This document shows, in pieces, positions 40,051 through 63,683 of a stretch of 64,000 nucleotides of DNA. Both the position numbers and the translations under genes were made by a program. Positions within the stretch are counted from its first letter, which is position 1; each line of letters begins with the position of its first letter. The DNA lies in NCBI RefSeq assembly GCF_002197845.1, contig NZ_NIDE01000011.1, forward strand, positions 1-64,000, in the 5' to 3' direction. This DNA comes from Fimbriiglobus ruber. Lineage in GTDB: Bacteria; Planctomycetota; Planctomycetia; Gemmatales; Gemmataceae. Under the pieces are notes generated by a model. That model had not been told where the DNA came from and searched no databases. It saw only the letters and a program-made list of their open reading frames with translations.

Positions 40051-41199
40051 ATGAGCGACACGACCTCGCAATGGACGACGAGCGCCGAGGCGGTGGCCCG
40101 CGACGTCCTCTCCCGGTACGCCGCCGACGTCGACCGGCAGGCCCGTTGGCCGGCCGAGAGCCTCGAAGCCCTCAAAGCCGGCGGGTTCTTCGGGCTGACC
40201 GTGCCGACGACACATGGCGGGGCCGGGGCGGGGCCGCGAACGTTCGCGGACGTGCTGTCGAAATTGGCGGAGGGGTGCGCGTCCACGGCAATGATCTACC
40301 TGATGCACGTGTGCGGTACCCAGGTGATCGTCGCCGCCACCGGATTCGGCCGACGGGATCAGCTACTTCGTGACATCGCCGCGGGTCGGCACCTTTCCAC
40401 GCTGGCGTTCAGTGAAAAGGGATCTCGTAGCCACTTCTGGGCCCCGGTCAGCCAGGCGACGGCCGACGGAGACGTTTACCACATCACCGCCGAAAAGTCC
40501 TGGGTCACGAGCGCCGGCCGGGCGAACGGCTACATCGTCTCCACGCGGTCGGCCGGGACCACCGAGCCGACCACCAGTACCCTGTATTACGTCCCCGAGG
40601 GGACGACCGGGCTGTCGGTTGCCGGCTCCTGGGCCGGGCTCGGGCTTCGGGGGAACGCCAGCGCCCCGATGCGGTTGAAGGACGTGGACGTTCCGGCTTC
40701 GGACCGAGTCAGTGGCGAGGGCGGCGGGTTCGACACGATGATCAACGTGATCCTGCCGTGGTTCCAACTCGGCAGTGCCGCGGTGGCCGTCGGGATTGCC
40801 CGGGCGTCGGTCGCGGGGGTCCGGGAACACTTGCTCGGGGCGAAATTTGAACACCTGGGGCAGACCCTCGCGGCGCTGCCGAACCTGCGGGCCGAGTTGG
40901 CTCTCATGCAGATCACGACCGATGCCCAGGCTGCCTTCCTCCACCAAGTGGCCTGGAAGATGGAAAACCCGCAACCGGACACCATGCTCGCCGTTCTCGG
41001 CAGCAAGGCAGCCGCGACCGAGGCGGCCCTGCAGGTGACCGACCTGGCCATGCGGGTGTGCGGCGGGACGGCGTTCAGTGGCCAGTTCGGCGTCGAGCGC
41101 AACTTCCGGGACGCCCGGGCCGGGTCGGTCATGGCGCCGACGACCGACGTCCTTTACGACTTCGTCGGCAAGGCGGTGCTGGGTATGCCCCTGTTTTGA
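40051..41199 (+). CDS. Acyl-CoA dehydrogenase-like flavoprotein (DszC/SfnB-like)
   Basis: 382 residues of the acyl-CoA dehydrogenase fold. N-terminal helical domain (WPAESLEALKAGGFFGLTVPTTHGGAGAGPRTFADVLSKLAEGCASTAM), a central beta domain (LAFSEKGSRSHFWAPVSQA, KSWVTSAGRANGYIVSTRS) and a C-terminal helical domain with QVTDLAMRVCGGTAFSGQFGVERNFRDARAG. No obvious catalytic Glu of true dehydrogenases at the usual place. Members near sulfur genes (DszC, SfnC, SfnB) are FMNH2-dependent monooxygenases or accessory oxidoreductases. First gene of a tight three-gene operon (9-bp gap to the next). Confidence 0.85.
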   Translation: MSDTTSQWTTSAEAVARDVLSRYAADVDRQARWPAESLEALKAGGFFGLTVPTTHGGAGAGPRTFADVLSKLAEGCASTAMIYLMHVCGTQVIVAATGFGRRDQLLRDIAAGRHLSTLAFSEKGSRSHFWAPVSQATADGDVYHITAEKSWVTSAGRANGYIVSTRSAGTTEPTTSTLYYVPEGTTGLSVAGSWAGLGLRGNASAPMRLKDVDVPASDRVSGEGGGFDTMINVILPWFQLGSAAVAVGIARASVAGVREHLLGAKFEHLGQTLAALPNLRAELALMQITTDAQAAFLHQVAWKMENPQPDTMLAVLGSKAAATEAALQVTDLAMRVCGGTAFSGQFGVERNFRDARAGSVMAPTTDVLYDFVGKAVLGMPLF

Positions 41200-41208
41200 G
41201 GTCGCGAT

Positions 41209-42039
41209 ATGGAACGGCCGGTCCGAATCGGTGCGGTGGCCTACGACCCGCGCGTGGTTCCCATTTGGGAAGGGATGCGCGACTACTTCCGGGAAGCCGG
41301 GCCGCCCATTGATTACGTCCTTTTCTCCAATTACGACAGCCAGGTCCAGGCCCTACTGGACCGGCACATCGACATCGCCTGGAACACCAACCTGGCCTGG
41401 GTGAAGGTCTACCGGCGGACCGACGGGACGTGTCGTGCCCTGGCGATGCGGGACGTGGACGCCAACTTCACCACCGTGTTCGTGACCCGGACCGACAGCG
41501 GGGTCGGGGCCTTGGCCGACGTGCGGGGCAAGCGGTTGGCCCTCGGGTCGGCCGACTCGGCTCAGGCGGCCATCCTACCCGTCCACTTCCTCCACCAGTC
41601 CGGGGTCGAACCCGACCGGGACTGCACGCTCCTGCGGTTCGATCTGGACGTCGGCAAGCACGGCGACACCGGGACGAGCGAGCTAGAAGTCCTTAAAGCC
41701 CTACGGGATAACCGGGCGGATGTCGGTGCGATCGGCGACGCAACGTGGGCCAAGCAACTCGCCGAGGGCCGCATCGACCCGTCGCAGGTTCGGGCCTTTT
41801 GGACCTCGCCGGGCTACTGCCACTGCAACTTTACGGTCCTGGGCGATTTCCCAGAGGACATCGGAAGGAACTGGACCGATTCGCTGATGGGGATGCGTTA
41901 CGACGACCCGCGGTGGCGGGAGTTGATGGACCTGGAGGGGCTGAAACGTTGGCTACCGACCGACGCGGAGGTCATGAAGGGGTACGACGTGCTGTTCGAA
42001 GCGGCCCGCCAACAGGGGCTGTACGGCCGATGGATGTGA
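41209..42039 (+). CDS. PhnD/SsuA-type substrate-binding protein without signal peptide
   Basis: 276 residues. The periplasmic-binding-protein type 2 fold is recognisable: VRIGAVAYDPRVVPIWEGMRDYF, SNYDSQVQALLDRHIDIAWNTNLAWV, LADVRGKRLALGSADSAQAA, then GEDxGKHGDTGTSELEVLKAL and VGAIGDATWAKQL. The PhnD/phosphonate-binding family assignment follows from these. No signal peptide or lipobox is present: the protein begins MERPVRIGAVAYD, so it is predicted to stay in the cytosol, unusual for a binding protein. It could act as a substrate carrier or sensor for the two neighbouring enzymes. Gap to the next gene: 4 bp. Confidence 0.8.
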   Translation: MERPVRIGAVAYDPRVVPIWEGMRDYFREAGPPIDYVLFSNYDSQVQALLDRHIDIAWNTNLAWVKVYRRTDGTCRALAMRDVDANFTTVFVTRTDSGVGALADVRGKRLALGSADSAQAAILPVHFLHQSGVEPDRDCTLLRFDLDVGKHGDTGTSELEVLKALRDNRADVGAIGDATWAKQLAEGRIDPSQVRAFWTSPGYCHCNFTVLGDFPEDIGRNWTDSLMGMRYDDPRWRELMDLEGLKRWLPTDAEVMKGYDVLFEAARQQGLYGRWM

Positions 42040-42043
42040 CTCT

Positions 42044-43306
42044 ATGACCGCTGACCCCGAGCCCGCAGCTCGCGTCGAAGGTGGGCCGCTGGGCGTCGCC
42101 GACGGCTTACTCATGCTCATCCGGGAGACCGCCGACGCGCTGCCCGCCGGAAGTGTGGTCGCCGTCCGCACGTCGCACCCGACCGTCGAACACGACCTGC
42201 CGGCCTGGTGCCGGATCATGTCCCACAGCTACCTCGGCTCCGTCGCGGGTCCGGACGGGGTGGTGTACTTTTTCCGCAAGGGCGACGTTTCCCCGCCGGC
42301 CGTCGCCAAACCGGACTGGGGCGTCCGAGCCCCGCTACGATCCGGTGGTGAGTTCCACACCCGCGACTGGCTCATCGGCCGGGTCGCGGACGTACCAGAG
42401 CGGGCGACCGGTGCGACCGGGTTCGCCCCCCGCGGGGCCGTGGTGGAACCGGGCTCGCCGGTTTACGACTTCACCATCAACGACCGGGCCGCGGTCTGGG
42501 CCGCCGAAGTAGCCGACCTGTACGAGCAGGCTACCGCCAGCCAGTGGGATGCGTCCCGCGACATCCCGTGGGGCGATCTGAGGCCGCTCCCGGAACCGGT
42601 CGAGCGGGCCGTCTGTCAACTCATGACCTTCCTGGCCGAGAACGAGTACTCGGCCCTGTACGTGCCGGCCAAGTTCGTCCCCCGGATCAACCCCCAGTTC
42701 GCCGAGGTCGTCTTCTTCCTCTGCACTCAGATGGCCGACGAGGCCCGACACATCGAGGCGTTCACCAAACGGGCACTGGCGAACGGTGGGGGGCTTCAGT
42801 ACGCGGCCGCGTCCACCCAACTCAGCCTCAAGACCCTGTTCGACCAGCACGACTTCACTGTCGCCTCGTTCCTTTTGTCGGTCCTGGGGGAGGGCACGTT
42901 CCTCGACCTGTTGCGGTTCATTGAGGACCACGCCCCGGACCCGGTGACGGCCGAGGTGTGCCGCCGGGCCCGGGTGGACGAGGCGCGGCACGTGAAGTTC
43001 GGGATGGCCCACCTCCGGTACTATCTGGGCGAGGATCCGGCCCACTTCGAGGAGCTTCGGACGGCCGTCCGGCGGCGGGCCGAGGTGATGGCCTCGGTGA
43101 CCGAGGTGAGCCCGCGGGTGCAGGAAGCTCTGGCGGTGTTAGCGGCCGGGGGACTCGACCCGGCCCGGCTCGGGGAGGGGACGCGGAAAGTGCGGGAGCT
43201 GATAGCCGAGATGCACTCGCACCGGCTCAAGCGGTTGGCGCAGGCCGGCTTCACCGAGATACAGGCCGAGGAGATGTCCCGGCTGCACACGCCGAATTTC
43301 ATGTAA
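42044..43306 (+). CDS. TusA-like domain fused to ferritin-like di-iron oxygenase domain
   Basis: 420 residues. Residues ~10-80 resemble TusA/SirA (VADGLLMLIRETADALPAGSVVAVRTSHPTVEHDLPAWCRIMSHSYLG... VVYFFRKG), but the sulfur-carrying CPxP motif is replaced by GGPLG, so persulfide transfer is unlikely. Residues ~150-400 form a ferritin-like helical domain with a complete putative di-iron site: Glu199/Glu201, E233-x-x-H236 (DEARH), Glu283 and E313-x-x-H316 (DEARH). Relatives include ribonucleotide-reductase-like and AurF-like oxygenases. Likely an O2-activating di-iron enzyme acting with the upstream flavoprotein and binding protein; substrate unknown. Confidence 0.8.
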   Translation: MTADPEPAARVEGGPLGVADGLLMLIRETADALPAGSVVAVRTSHPTVEHDLPAWCRIMSHSYLGSVAGPDGVVYFFRKGDVSPPAVAKPDWGVRAPLRSGGEFHTRDWLIGRVADVPERATGATGFAPRGAVVEPGSPVYDFTINDRAAVWAAEVADLYEQATASQWDASRDIPWGDLRPLPEPVERAVCQLMTFLAENEYSALYVPAKFVPRINPQFAEVVFFLCTQMADEARHIEAFTKRALANGGGLQYAAASTQLSLKTLFDQHDFTVASFLLSVLGEGTFLDLLRFIEDHAPDPVTAEVCRRARVDEARHVKFGMAHLRYYLGEDPAHFEELRTAVRRRAEVMASVTEVSPRVQEALAVLAAGGLDPARLGEGTRKVRELIAEMHSHRLKRLAQAGFTEIQAEEMSRLHTPNFM

Positions 43307-43598
43307 AAGGACAACCGCCAAGTGACCGCCAACAGGGCGAGCCCGTAACTGGAGAGTTCCCCACGCCAGCGATACCCGTTCCCGGCACCGCAACCACTGC
43401 CGCGGTAACGATCGCGTCGTCGCCGGCCGCGAGTACCGCTTGGCCCGCTTCCGCGCCCCCGGCATATCCGGTTACCAGCCTTTCAGGGGAGCATCGGTCG
43501 CGCGACCGTCGGGCGGCGACAACCCGGCAACGAGGACGCACGCGGTGTCGGTCAGGAGCCCGCGGCGGGCGGTTGTCGTCGGCACCGGGGTCTACCCG
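43307..43598. other. Convergent intergenic region
   Basis: About 290 bp between the plus-strand sulfur trio and the minus-strand ssuB. Open frames are present but Arg/Ala-rich and unrecognised, and no strong hairpin terminator was found. Confidence 0.4.
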
Positions 43599-45132: not shown

Positions 45133-46277
45133 TCACCCCTTCGCCCCGGCGGGAACGGCGACCGCGCCGTTGGCGACCACCTCGCCGACGATCGCCCGGG
45201 CCGGCCGCGGCTCCGGGGTGTCGCCGCGCGGCAGGAGTGGGAAGACGTGTTCGGCCACCCGGTACGCCTCGTCGAGGTGCGGGTAGCCGGAGAGGATGAA
45301 CGTGTCGATCCCGTGGGCGGCGTACTCCCGCATCAGGGCCGCGACGGTCGGCCCGTCGCCGACCATCGCCGTCCCGGCCCCGCCGCGGACCAGCCCGACC
45401 CCCGCCCACAGGTCCGGCCGCAGCCACAGGGCCGCGCGGTCGCCGCGGTGCAGCTCGAGCATCCGGCGCTGGCCGTCCGAGTCGTGCCCCGCGAGCGACC
45501 TCTGGGCGGCGGCCGCGACCTCCGGTGCCAGCTTGCTGAGGAGGCGTTCGGCGCCCTCCCGGGCCTCCGAGACGGTATCCCGGACGAGGACGTGCAGCCG
45601 GACGCCGAACCGGACGGTCCGCCCGCGGCCGCGGCCAGCTCCCGCACCCGGGCGACCTTCTCGCCCACCTGGGCCGGCGGCTCTCCCCACGCCAGGTACA
45701 GATCGACGTGCCGGGCCGCCACCCGCATGGCGGCCGGCGACGACCCCCCGAAGTAGAGCGGGATGTGCGGCTCCTGGACCGGCGGGAACAGCCCCTTCGC
45801 CCCGCGGACCGTGACGTGCCGACCGGCGAAGTCGACCGTCTCGCCCCGGGCCAGCCCCCGCCAGACGGTCAGGAACTCGTCGGTCTGGGCGTACCGCTCG
45901 TCGTGGTCGAGAAACAGCCCGTCGCCGTGCAGTTCGCCCACGTCCCCGCCGGTGACGACGTTGATGAGAACCCGCCCGCCGGACAGCCGGTCGAACGTGG
46001 CCGCCATCCGGTGGGCGAGGGTCGGGCTGACGAGCCCGGGGCGGACGGCGACGAGGAACCGCAGCCGGGTGGTGACGGCGGACAGGGCGGCGGCCGTCAC
46101 CCAGGCGTCCTCGCACCCCCGACCGGTCGGGAGCAGGACGCCACGGAACCCGAGGGCGTCGGCCGCCTTCGCCACCTGGGCGAAGTAGTCGAACGTCGCC
46201 GGCCGGGCCCCTTCCGGGGTGCCGAGGAACCGCCCGTCCCCGTGGGTCGGGATGAACCAGAACACGTCGAGCGCCAT
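45133..46277 (-). pseudogene. ssuD: FMNH2-dependent alkanesulfonate monooxygenase, frameshifted
   Basis: Luciferase-like TIM-barrel enzyme that releases sulfite from alkanesulfonates. The start overlaps the ssuA stop by one base (TGATG). The first ~220 residues ([77 protein letters not shown]) are in one frame and the rest ([48 protein letters not shown]) in another. The shift lies near 45620-45640; one missing C in GCGGGCGGACC would explain it. With that base the length would be normal (~380). Sequencing error or a genuine null allele. Confidence 0.8.
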
Positions 46278-47245
46278 CAGTCCGCCCTCCCGAACGGGAC
46301 GGCCCCGACGGCCGCCCGGACCTCGATCCGGTGCGGCAGGAGGCCGATTTCAAAGTACCGGTCGGCCAGCGCCTGCTGGTCGGCCACCAGGTCGGCGGTC
46401 ACCGGGCCGGTGTCGTACCGGTCCCGCCGGGCCTCGGCGAGGGCCACCGCCCGGGGGTCGAGCCCGGTCTGGCCGGCGAGCAACCCGCTCACCTCCGCCG
46501 GCCGTTGCTTCGCCCACGCCTTCACTCCGGCCAGCTCATCGAGGAACGCCCGGATCACCTCGGGCCGCTCGGTTGCCGCCGTGCTGGAGGCGAAGTAGTA
46601 CTCCCGGCCCGAGACGTATCCGGTGCCGCCGACCAGCCGGCGGACCCCGCCGCCGTACTCGGCCGCGGCCGCGTACGGATCCCAGATCGCCCACGCGTCG
46701 ACCGCCCCGGCTTCCAGGGCGGCCCGGCCGTCGGACGGCGCGAGGTAGACCGGCTCCACGTCGGTGAAAGCCAGCCCGTGTTTCTCCAGCACCCGCAGCA
46801 GGAGGGTGTGGGCGCTGGTGCCCTTGGTGAACCCGATCCGCTTGCCGCGGAGATCGGAGACCGCCCGGAGCGGTGAACCCTCGCGGACGAGGACCGCGGC
46901 ACTCTCCGGACTGGGGGACGACGCGGCGATGTAGACGAACGGGACGCCGGCCGCCTGCGCGAACAGGGGCGGCGAGTCGCCGGCGTGGCCGAGATCGATG
47001 CTCCCGGCGTTCAGAGCCTCGAGGAGGGGCGGCCCGGCCGGGAACTCGACCCACTCGATCCTCAGTCCGCGGGCGGCAAACGCCCGTTCGAGCTCACCGG
47101 AGGTCTTGAGGATCGAATACGTGCTCCACTTTTGATAGCCGATGCGAAGGACCCCGTCGGCTCCGCTCCCCGAGCCGCACCCGGGAACCACGGCGATACA
47201 GACGGCCAGGACCACCTGCCAGACCGACGCGAACGAGATTCGCAT
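46277..47245 (-). CDS. ssuA: Aliphatic sulfonate substrate-binding lipoprotein
   Basis: 322 residues. Lipoprotein signal [20 protein letters not shown], then PGC. Mature protein follows Ssu[93 protein letters not shown], and [18 protein letters not shown]. It captures sulfonates outside the cytoplasmic membrane for SsuBC. First gene of the minus-strand ssuADCB operon, all neighbours overlapping or within 6 bp. AT-rich DNA just upstream (47280-47330) probably contains the promoter. Confidence 0.92.
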
Positions 47246-63578: not shown

Positions 63579-63673
63579 GGGGGTGTTTGCACGGCTGGTG
63601 CCGGCCCTGGTCTTCAAAACCTGTGGGGGGTGTGAACAACGCCCCCAGTCGGTTCGATTCCGATACACTCCCG
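63579..63673 (+). tRNA. selC: tRNA-Sec (anticodon TCA)
   Basis: 95-nt tRNA with an 8-bp acceptor stem GGGGGTGT (63579-63586) / ACACTCCC (63665-63672, one G-U), discriminator G63673, a GCAC/GTGC D-stem, anticodon loop CTTCAAA (TCA), a long variable arm GGGGG...CCCCC and T-arm GTCGG-TTCGATT-CCGAT. The long extra arm, 8+5 acceptor/T design and UCA anticodon are diagnostic of selenocysteine tRNA. One mismatch sits in the anticodon stem. CCA is not encoded. Implies SelA/SelB/SelD and selenoproteins elsewhere in the genome. Confidence 0.85.
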
Positions 63674-63683
63674 CTCGGACTCC

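Follow-up and report, generated by a model that had tools for sequence, protein, structure and literature searches.

Described relatives of a three-gene operon in Fimbriiglobus ruber

Several described systems share parts with a three-gene operon of the planctomycete Fimbriiglobus ruber, which lies in the 64,000-nucleotide stretch analyzed here (contig NZ_NIDE01000011.1, positions 1 to 64,000; the window) and encodes a flavoprotein of acyl-CoA dehydrogenase type, a PhnD-type binding protein, and a fusion of a TusA-like domain with a ferritin-like di-iron domain. In Mycobacterium tuberculosis, Rv1679 (FadE16)-Rv1680-Rv1681 (MoeX), presumably in this gene order to judge from the locus numbers, includes a flavoprotein and a cytosolic binding protein of related families, but the third gene there encodes a radical S-adenosylmethionine (SAM) protein. 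The window proteins score under the cut-offs of the corresponding models (476 of 600 and 364 of 400 bits), and the trio is not assigned to the Rv1679-1681 type. At the annotation level, Rv1680 is a putative phosphonate transporter component (available text of PMC8562490), and Rv1681, in the annotation accessible to us, a possible molybdopterin biosynthesis protein. The literature covered, mostly open papers, neither described the module nor examined by experiment what Rv1679-1681 do.

Other known systems overlap with single components. TusA-DsrE sulfur relays have a TusA-like domain in common with the trio, and relatives of the trio pair this domain with a CSPC-bearing DsrE protein, whereas the window trio has neither DsrE nor the sulfur cysteine. 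The core (folate-independent) methionine synthases MesA-MesD, with MesX, contain a MetE-like enzyme of the kind that serves as third gene in loci elsewhere (Price 2021; available text of PMC7857596); the window trio lacks such an enzyme, and the partners in the module are OsmC, DsrE, or the binding protein, not DUF1852. According to the same text, MesD likewise requires O2 and a partner protein. VlmB, AurF, ADO, and R2lox share their fold (best Z 22.3) and metal-ligand residues with the di-iron domain, but the window protein is fused to a TusA-like domain and falls under the AurF cut-off. PhnD and PtxB share the fold of the binding protein (Z 25-26 for the best rows), which differs from them in being read as cytosolic, in its altered ligand loop, and in lying in an operon without a transporter. 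We read the trio, with somewhat less than even confidence, as a cytosolic, oxygen-dependent variant of a modular system in which a persulfide relay has been replaced by a small-molecule route; its probable setting is sulfur metabolism linked to thiols or methionine. The genes and domains are listed below with our own labels; MET and OSMC further denote MetE-like and OsmC-like proteins.

40051-41199, + strand: flavoprotein gene (ACAD), 382 amino acids; open reading frame
41209-42039, + strand: PhnD-type binding protein gene (SBP), Rv1680-like, predicted cytosolic, 276 amino acids; open reading frame, Pfam, NCBIfam, fold
42044-43306, + strand: TusA-like-di-iron fusion gene, third of the trio, 420 amino acids; open reading frame
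42056-42319, + strand: TusA-like N-terminal domain (TUSN) of the fusion, residues 5-92; own profile, Pfam, model
42413-43303, + strand: ferritin-like di-iron domain (DIFE) of the fusion, residues 124-420; own profile, model, fold matches

The three open reading frames lie close together on the + strand as one operon, separated by 9 and 4 bp, as described in the original prediction, which was made from the sequence alone and whose family names (acyl-CoA dehydrogenase type, PhnD/SsuA-like, TusA-like/di-iron) are borne out by Pfam and fold matches. A search of the 12.36-Mb genome for a second copy of the fusion gene at E ≤ 0.01 returned only the self-match. By its binding protein, the closest named relative is a Gemmataceae metagenome-assembled genome (MAG; locus L051, 82%).

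Gene 1 has acyl-CoA dehydrogenase domains in Pfam and scores 476 bits against the FadE16/Rv1679 model NF049984, below the cut-off of 600. The dehydrogenase motif YEGT, whose Glu we take to be the catalytic residue of the C-terminal domain, is replaced by MAPT(T); the Glu position, A362, is Ala in 36 of 37 aligned flavoproteins, and T364 is kept in all 37. Because an Ala occupies the catalytic Glu position, we do not place the protein among the acyl-CoA dehydrogenases, and its sequence indicates that it is not an ordinary member of that family. The SfnB- or DszC-like identity proposed in the original prediction was rejected, since these models score 115.6 (cut-off 430.9) and 69.7 bits (cut-off 850) against 476 bits for FadE16.

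Gene 2 belongs to the Pfam Phosphonate-bd family (PF12974; 120.6 bits, cut-off 27) and is clearly related to the Rv1680 SBP-like model NF049985, at 364 bits under a cut-off of 400; among other NCBIfam models it scores highest against TIGR04553, a putative selenate binding protein (122.6 of 250 bits). The predicted model (pLDDT, predicted local distance difference test, 94) matches PhnD (7s6g, Z 26.4), PtxB, HtxB, and ArrX at Z of ~25-26, with AioX also among the closest folds and Thi5 among the matches. H205-C206 is invariant in the family (41 of 41 rows), as is H151-G152-D153, with K150 nearly so, and the STSG loop of solved relatives, which we take to be their anion-binding loop, reads DSAQ or DSTQ here. 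The window protein starts four residues ahead of the first strand of the model. Among 63 relatives scoring >200 bits, to which the signal survey was limited, 58 have their start codon at most five codons from the domain, and the other five have no upstream hydrophobic stretch over threshold. Because the starts abut the domain and no signal-like stretch was seen upstream, we read the binding protein as cytosolic. Outside this survey lie the transporter-type proteins of L096 and L108 and two tandem lipoproteins (L109:7170-9071 and L110:7848-9623), each with two tandem PhnD/Rv1680-like domains and, by eye, a lipoprotein-like start.

Both domains of the gene 3 product are sub-threshold in Pfam, as TusA scores 24.3 bits (cut-off 28.6) and AurF 23.7 bits (cut-off 29.6). 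The predicted model (pLDDT 91) matches VlmB, ADO, and R2lox at Z 19-22, the best match being VlmB (8wvr, Z 22.3) over residues 122-416; this list is filled by the di-iron domain, with the TusA-like part outside its reach. All 46-47 rows conserve E199, E201, E233, H236, E283, E313, and H316, and these Glu and His ligand residues, together with the VlmB/AurF/ADO fold, make the protein a putative di-iron oxygenase. The model bears out the C-terminal part as a predicted di-iron domain, which would bind metal and use O2. The TusA-like assignment is supported by the sub-threshold Pfam match, the secondary structure of the model, and scores above the cut-off (33.3-33.5 bits) for related N-terminal domains.

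Conservation of the trio and exchange of its third gene

A scan of 84,980 species genomes found gene 3 relatives at 40 loci, and at 38 of these the di-iron domain is present. The scan loci and eight planctomycete loci, with five duplicates taken out (L032-L034, L036, and L037, duplicating L065, L066, L068, L079, and L077), gave 46 non-duplicate di-iron loci; L083 and L084 were both kept despite identical di-iron domains. The binding protein gene adjoins the di-iron domain in 40 of the 46 and the flavoprotein gene in 36, and all three genes lie on one strand in 36, in the order ACAD-SBP-DIFE in 25 and DIFE-ACAD-SBP in 11. Their togetherness is therefore not due to chance, and the trio is a conserved unit, which settles in the affirmative the co-occurrence check proposed with the original prediction. 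The phyla represented among the loci are Planctomycetota, Acidobacteriota, Myxococcota, Bacillota, Chloroflexota, Actinomycetota, Armatimonadota, Bdellovibrionota, and Pseudomonadota. Correlations between the pairwise distances of the three proteins are 0.85-0.91 (27-31 loci), a level reached in 0 of 2000 permutations. At least 15 of 294 planctomycete genomes have the di-iron fusion, all 15 with the binding protein (fragmentary in G293); the planctomycete genome counts are lower bounds, as the best few first-pass candidates per genome were scored.

Four of the 46 loci have the binding protein without the flavoprotein: L063, which is cut by a contig end, and L055, L073, and L080, in which tblastn found no flavoprotein. 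Six have neither (L053, L057, which lies at a contig start, and L082-L085); the last four are actinomycete di-iron homologs that lack the TusA-like domain, with an OsmC-like gene after each. Across 47 neighborhoods (the 46 loci and the window), with the trio and reading-frame shadows excepted, the commonest further family occurs in five. No transporter family is conserved beside the trio, the commonest being an ATP-binding cassette (ABC) ATPase in four of the 47, the window included. With no signal-like stretch in 63 relatives and no conserved transporter, the uptake role originally foreseen for the PhnD/SsuA-like protein is not supported.

The third gene is exchanged in relatives of the trio. 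Fourteen planctomycete genomes have the binding protein and no full gene 3, and in ten of them a MetE-like gene lies beside it, always with the flavoprotein and an OsmC-like gene (in L100 a contig end truncates the MetE-like gene). In L098, ACAD-SBP is followed by a TUSN domain truncated at the contig end, L102 has SBP-ACAD alone on a short contig, and L096 and L108 have a weaker, transporter-type binding protein with an ABC ATPase. The actinobacterial locus L132 reads ACAD-SBP-MET-OSMC. Nine aligned MetE-like proteins, with one MetE-labelled row left out as a ribonucleotide reductase, keep H255, C257, E291, and C348 and also S14, E65, and D201 (L101 numbering), which are zinc and homocysteine residues, respectively, in the available text of PMC7857596. 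Both versions occur within one genus, di-iron in G086 and MetE-like in G022.

A radical SAM protein follows ACAD-SBP in the actinobacterial loci L124, L125, and L147, and follows the binding protein in L146, where a search found no flavoprotein; in the actinobacterial L133 and L134, none of the known third genes was found after ACAD-SBP. L124 passes the NCBIfam cut-offs for Rv1679, Rv1680, and Rv1681 (NF049984, NF049985, and NF049973). This version is rare, the Rv1681 family being present in 4 of 121 genomes of one family. By hhalign, the N-terminus of the L124 and L125 radical SAM proteins can be aligned to TUSN (from two rows, E 1.3e-5 at 81% probability; with the direction reversed, E 2.3e-4 at 45%). 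A further locus (L145:519-5053) encodes a TUSN domain (own profile E 3e-19; Pfam TusA 21.7 of 28.6 bits) fused to Radical_SAM (5.5e-15), in a row with an ABC ATPase, a permease, and a PhnD-type protein that, by eye, bears a lipoprotein-like signal. In the binding protein tree, the radical SAM group is nested within di-iron groups (96/93, 95/83); the MetE-like group forms one clade (100/97) next to a further di-iron clade. This nesting of partner groups indicates that the binding protein stayed in position through at least two changes of partner.

DoxD/DoxX-like membrane proteins, sought with two query proteins, lie near L124, L125, L132, L133, L145, L146, and L147, and in L145 the DoxX gene is upstream of the fusion row on the other strand. 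Pfam confirms DoxD/DoxX in L125, L132, and L145 and returns nothing in L124 and L147. We rejected this family as a di-iron partner, as it stands beside none of the di-iron loci and only in actinobacterial loci of the other versions.

The cysteine of the TusA-like domain and the methionine link

The position scored in TUSN is one that we take to hold TusA's sulfur-carrying Cys of the CPxP motif. Among 79 TUSN domains surveyed, it is Cys in all 28 from DsrE clusters (as CGxG or CGD/E, both L053 domains included) and in 0 of 46 linked to the binding protein, where Leu, Phe, Ala, Val, and others stand instead; one more domain has a gap, and the 46 include the domain of L072, which has a reading frame to itself, and that of L098, truncated at the contig end. 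L042 and L057, di-iron loci in which the binding protein is broken or cut off, likewise lack the Cys, and the L145 radical SAM fusion and the CPxP TusA of L090 have it. The TUSN cysteine follows the delivery partner, present with DsrE and absent with the binding protein. In the window the position is Val; a TusA sulfurtransferase identity for this domain was accordingly rejected, and sulfur transfer by the part that the original prediction called TusA-like finds no support in the window copy.

The DsrE clusters read TUSN-DsrE-TUSN.OSMC-MET or TUSN-DsrE-TUSN.MET, without the flavoprotein or a single cytosolic binding protein. DsrE is present in all 13 TUSN clusters examined (9 of the 23 TUSN-only planctomycete places and four from other searches), with the CSPC motif in the eight rows aligned. 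DsrE-MetE-like clusters stand at L044-L050, L066, L089, L109, and L136-L138, with a small difference in order in L047 and a tandem binding lipoprotein added beside the TUSN-DsrE-TUSN.MET cluster of L109. L066 holds both a DsrE cluster and a di-iron trio, divergent and ~3 kb apart, one with Cys and the other with Phe. L053 combines the relay with the di-iron enzyme as TUSN-DsrE-TUSN.DIFE, both TUSN domains having Cys, and no binding protein was found at E ≤ 1e-8 in its genome, a MAG in which absence is uncertain. It is sister to an SBP-linked fusion clade mostly of DIFE-ACAD-SBP order (99/95 in the DIFE tree, 98/93 in the TUSN tree), so that the Cys was either lost at least twice, each time with the binding protein, or regained in L053. 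The two gene orders would fit two recruitments of ACAD-SBP, L039 excepted.

The MET family, recognized at over 500 bits (the next other match scores 216), is present in 43 of the 294 planctomycete genomes. It occurs in 16 of the 27 genomes with the binding protein (Fisher p 1.2e-8), in 6 of 17 after genomes with MET beside the binding protein are set aside (p 0.008), and in 6 of 15 with the di-iron fusion (p 0.013), kinship being ignored in each case. In the set of 27, weak matches with E >1e-34 were left out (G113, G279, and second copies in G149 and G178) and G293 was added; the MetE-like gene of G176, split over two contigs, was counted once. In three of the 25 genomes checked (G122 and G217, both 100% complete, and G070, 99%), the MET of the DsrE cluster is the sole candidate methionine synthase: neither a MetH activation domain nor a full MetE was found in them, with a domainless MetH still possible. 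The DsrE-MetE-like clusters may constitute a methionine synthase system that has not been described. For the window trio itself we rejected a methionine role, as its genome encodes both MetH and a full MetE but no MET member at E ≤ 1e-40.

In the mechanism that we propose, the constant half of the system would be the Rv1680-type protein, holding a small anionic substrate in the cytosol, and its FadE16-type flavoprotein partner, which would alter the substrate by a reaction other than ordinary acyl-CoA dehydrogenation. The exchangeable half would be the di-iron enzyme here, and in relatives either the radical SAM fusion with its TusA-like domain or a zinc enzyme of MetE-like type together with OsmC; the di-iron domain would complete the reaction with O2. 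An ancestral form probably supplied its terminal enzyme via a persulfide relay of DsrE and the TusA-like Cys. When the binding protein and flavoprotein took over delivery, the Cys would have been lost, the domain being kept for docking or recognition. We infer the relay replacement from the cysteine pattern, and the thiol or methionine setting from the partner families in relatives, whose DsrE, OsmC, MetE-like, and DoxD/DoxX proteins lend the sulfur theme indirect support. To that extent the sulfur idea of the original prediction survives in a wider sense, shorn of its ssu link, its uptake role, and its SfnB/DszC chemistry.

Several observations weigh against this reading. The binding protein is missing from six of the 46 di-iron loci and the flavoprotein from ten; gene order does not follow clade cleanly, L039 having the second order inside a first-order clade; the number of Cys losses is uncertain because deep TUSN branches are poorly resolved, and a regain in L053 is possible. 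With MetH, a full MetE, and no MET member, the window genome has no need of the methionine link, and the ssu neighbor described below may be relevant in this genome alone.

A broader proposal, which we put forward more tentatively still, is an undescribed class of systems in which either a DsrE/TusA relay or the binding protein with flavoprotein delivers to a di-iron, radical SAM, or MetE-like plus OsmC terminal enzyme. On more than one occasion one delivery half would have taken the place of the other and the carrier Cys been lost, and the class would include Rv1679-1681 and the planctomycete methionine synthase candidate. If true, this would give a first frame for three uncharacterized M. 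tuberculosis families and a widespread di-iron fusion, as alternative heads on one delivery system, and a natural experiment, since a sulfur carrier bound to protein would have given way to something else while its domain persists without Cys. The MetE-like versions may explain how some bacteria make methionine when neither a full MetE nor a MetH activation domain is detected in them.

Alternative explanations and the ssu neighbor

The azoxy synthase VlmB among the closest solved di-iron folds raises an unlikely, though not far-fetched, alternative: a pathway to a specialized metabolite or cofactor, with N- or C-oxidation of VlmB/AurF type, desaturation by the flavoprotein, no sulfur role, and the binding protein acting as an enzyme, as we assume by likeness to MqnA and to Thi5, the latter among its fold matches. 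The scattered distribution (at least 15 of 294 planctomycete genomes) and the missing conserved transporter agree with it, but no further gene family recurs in more than 5 of the 47 neighborhoods, and the DsrE, OsmC, and MetE-like partners of relatives suit thiol chemistry better. There is also a small chance that the PhnD-type protein holds an oxyanion or its methylated form (phosphonate, phosphite, arsenic, or selenium), which the enzymes convert. PhnD, PtxB, HtxB, ArrX, and AioX as closest folds, the TIGR04553 match, the L145 fusion beside a PhnD-type protein, ABC ATPase, and permease, and the structure-based annotation of Rv1680 in the available text of PMC8562490 all point that way, whereas the DSAQ or DSTQ sequence in place of STSG speaks against it. 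A selenocysteine tRNA gene (tRNA-Sec) lies at 63579-63674 on the + strand; since tRNA-Sec scores over the cut-off in 215 of the 294 planctomycetes, it is uninformative, and a selenium link based on it and on two selenium-mentioning NCBIfam matches was rejected as non-discriminating.

The ssu operon does face the trio, as originally noted, convergent across a measured 292 bp (43307-43598), and it invites a reading as organosulfur scavenging, in which the binding protein takes a sulfonate or sulfone, an SfnB/DszC-type flavoprotein and the di-iron enzyme oxidize it, and SsuD frees sulfite. Sulfur-related families in relatives are compatible with this, and in L072 (Bacillus sp. DNRA2) ssuD, ssuB, and ssuC lie ~3.4 kb from the trio. 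When the window SsuA, SsuB, SsuC, and SsuD were searched against all open reading frames of the 46 loci (651 kb), however, L072, with SsuD, SsuB, and SsuC, was the one locus with a full ssu set in the fetched flanks; in two other di-iron loci the sole match was a weaker one to the ATPase, in 34 loci belonging to other versions only the ATPase was matched, and the fetched flanks of L051, the nearest relative by binding protein, hold no ssu genes. Since ssu is this rare beside the trio, is missing from L051, and the flanking genes vary between the three Bacillota loci listed, we regard the adjacency as local, and the conserved ssu linkage that had been expected was rejected. No tau or cys family is among the shared neighbors of the 47 neighborhoods, although no search with models of these families was made. 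The binding protein without signal peptide and the SfnB and DszC scores far under cut-off likewise count against organosulfur scavenging, which we consider very improbable. In the window operon, SsuA scores 278 bits, SsuC 348 bits (cut-off 347), and SsuB 291 bits. The ssuD gene (45133-46353, - strand) is split over two reading frames, with model positions 1-216 in one open reading frame and 214-346 in another, and is therefore either broken or bears a sequencing error.

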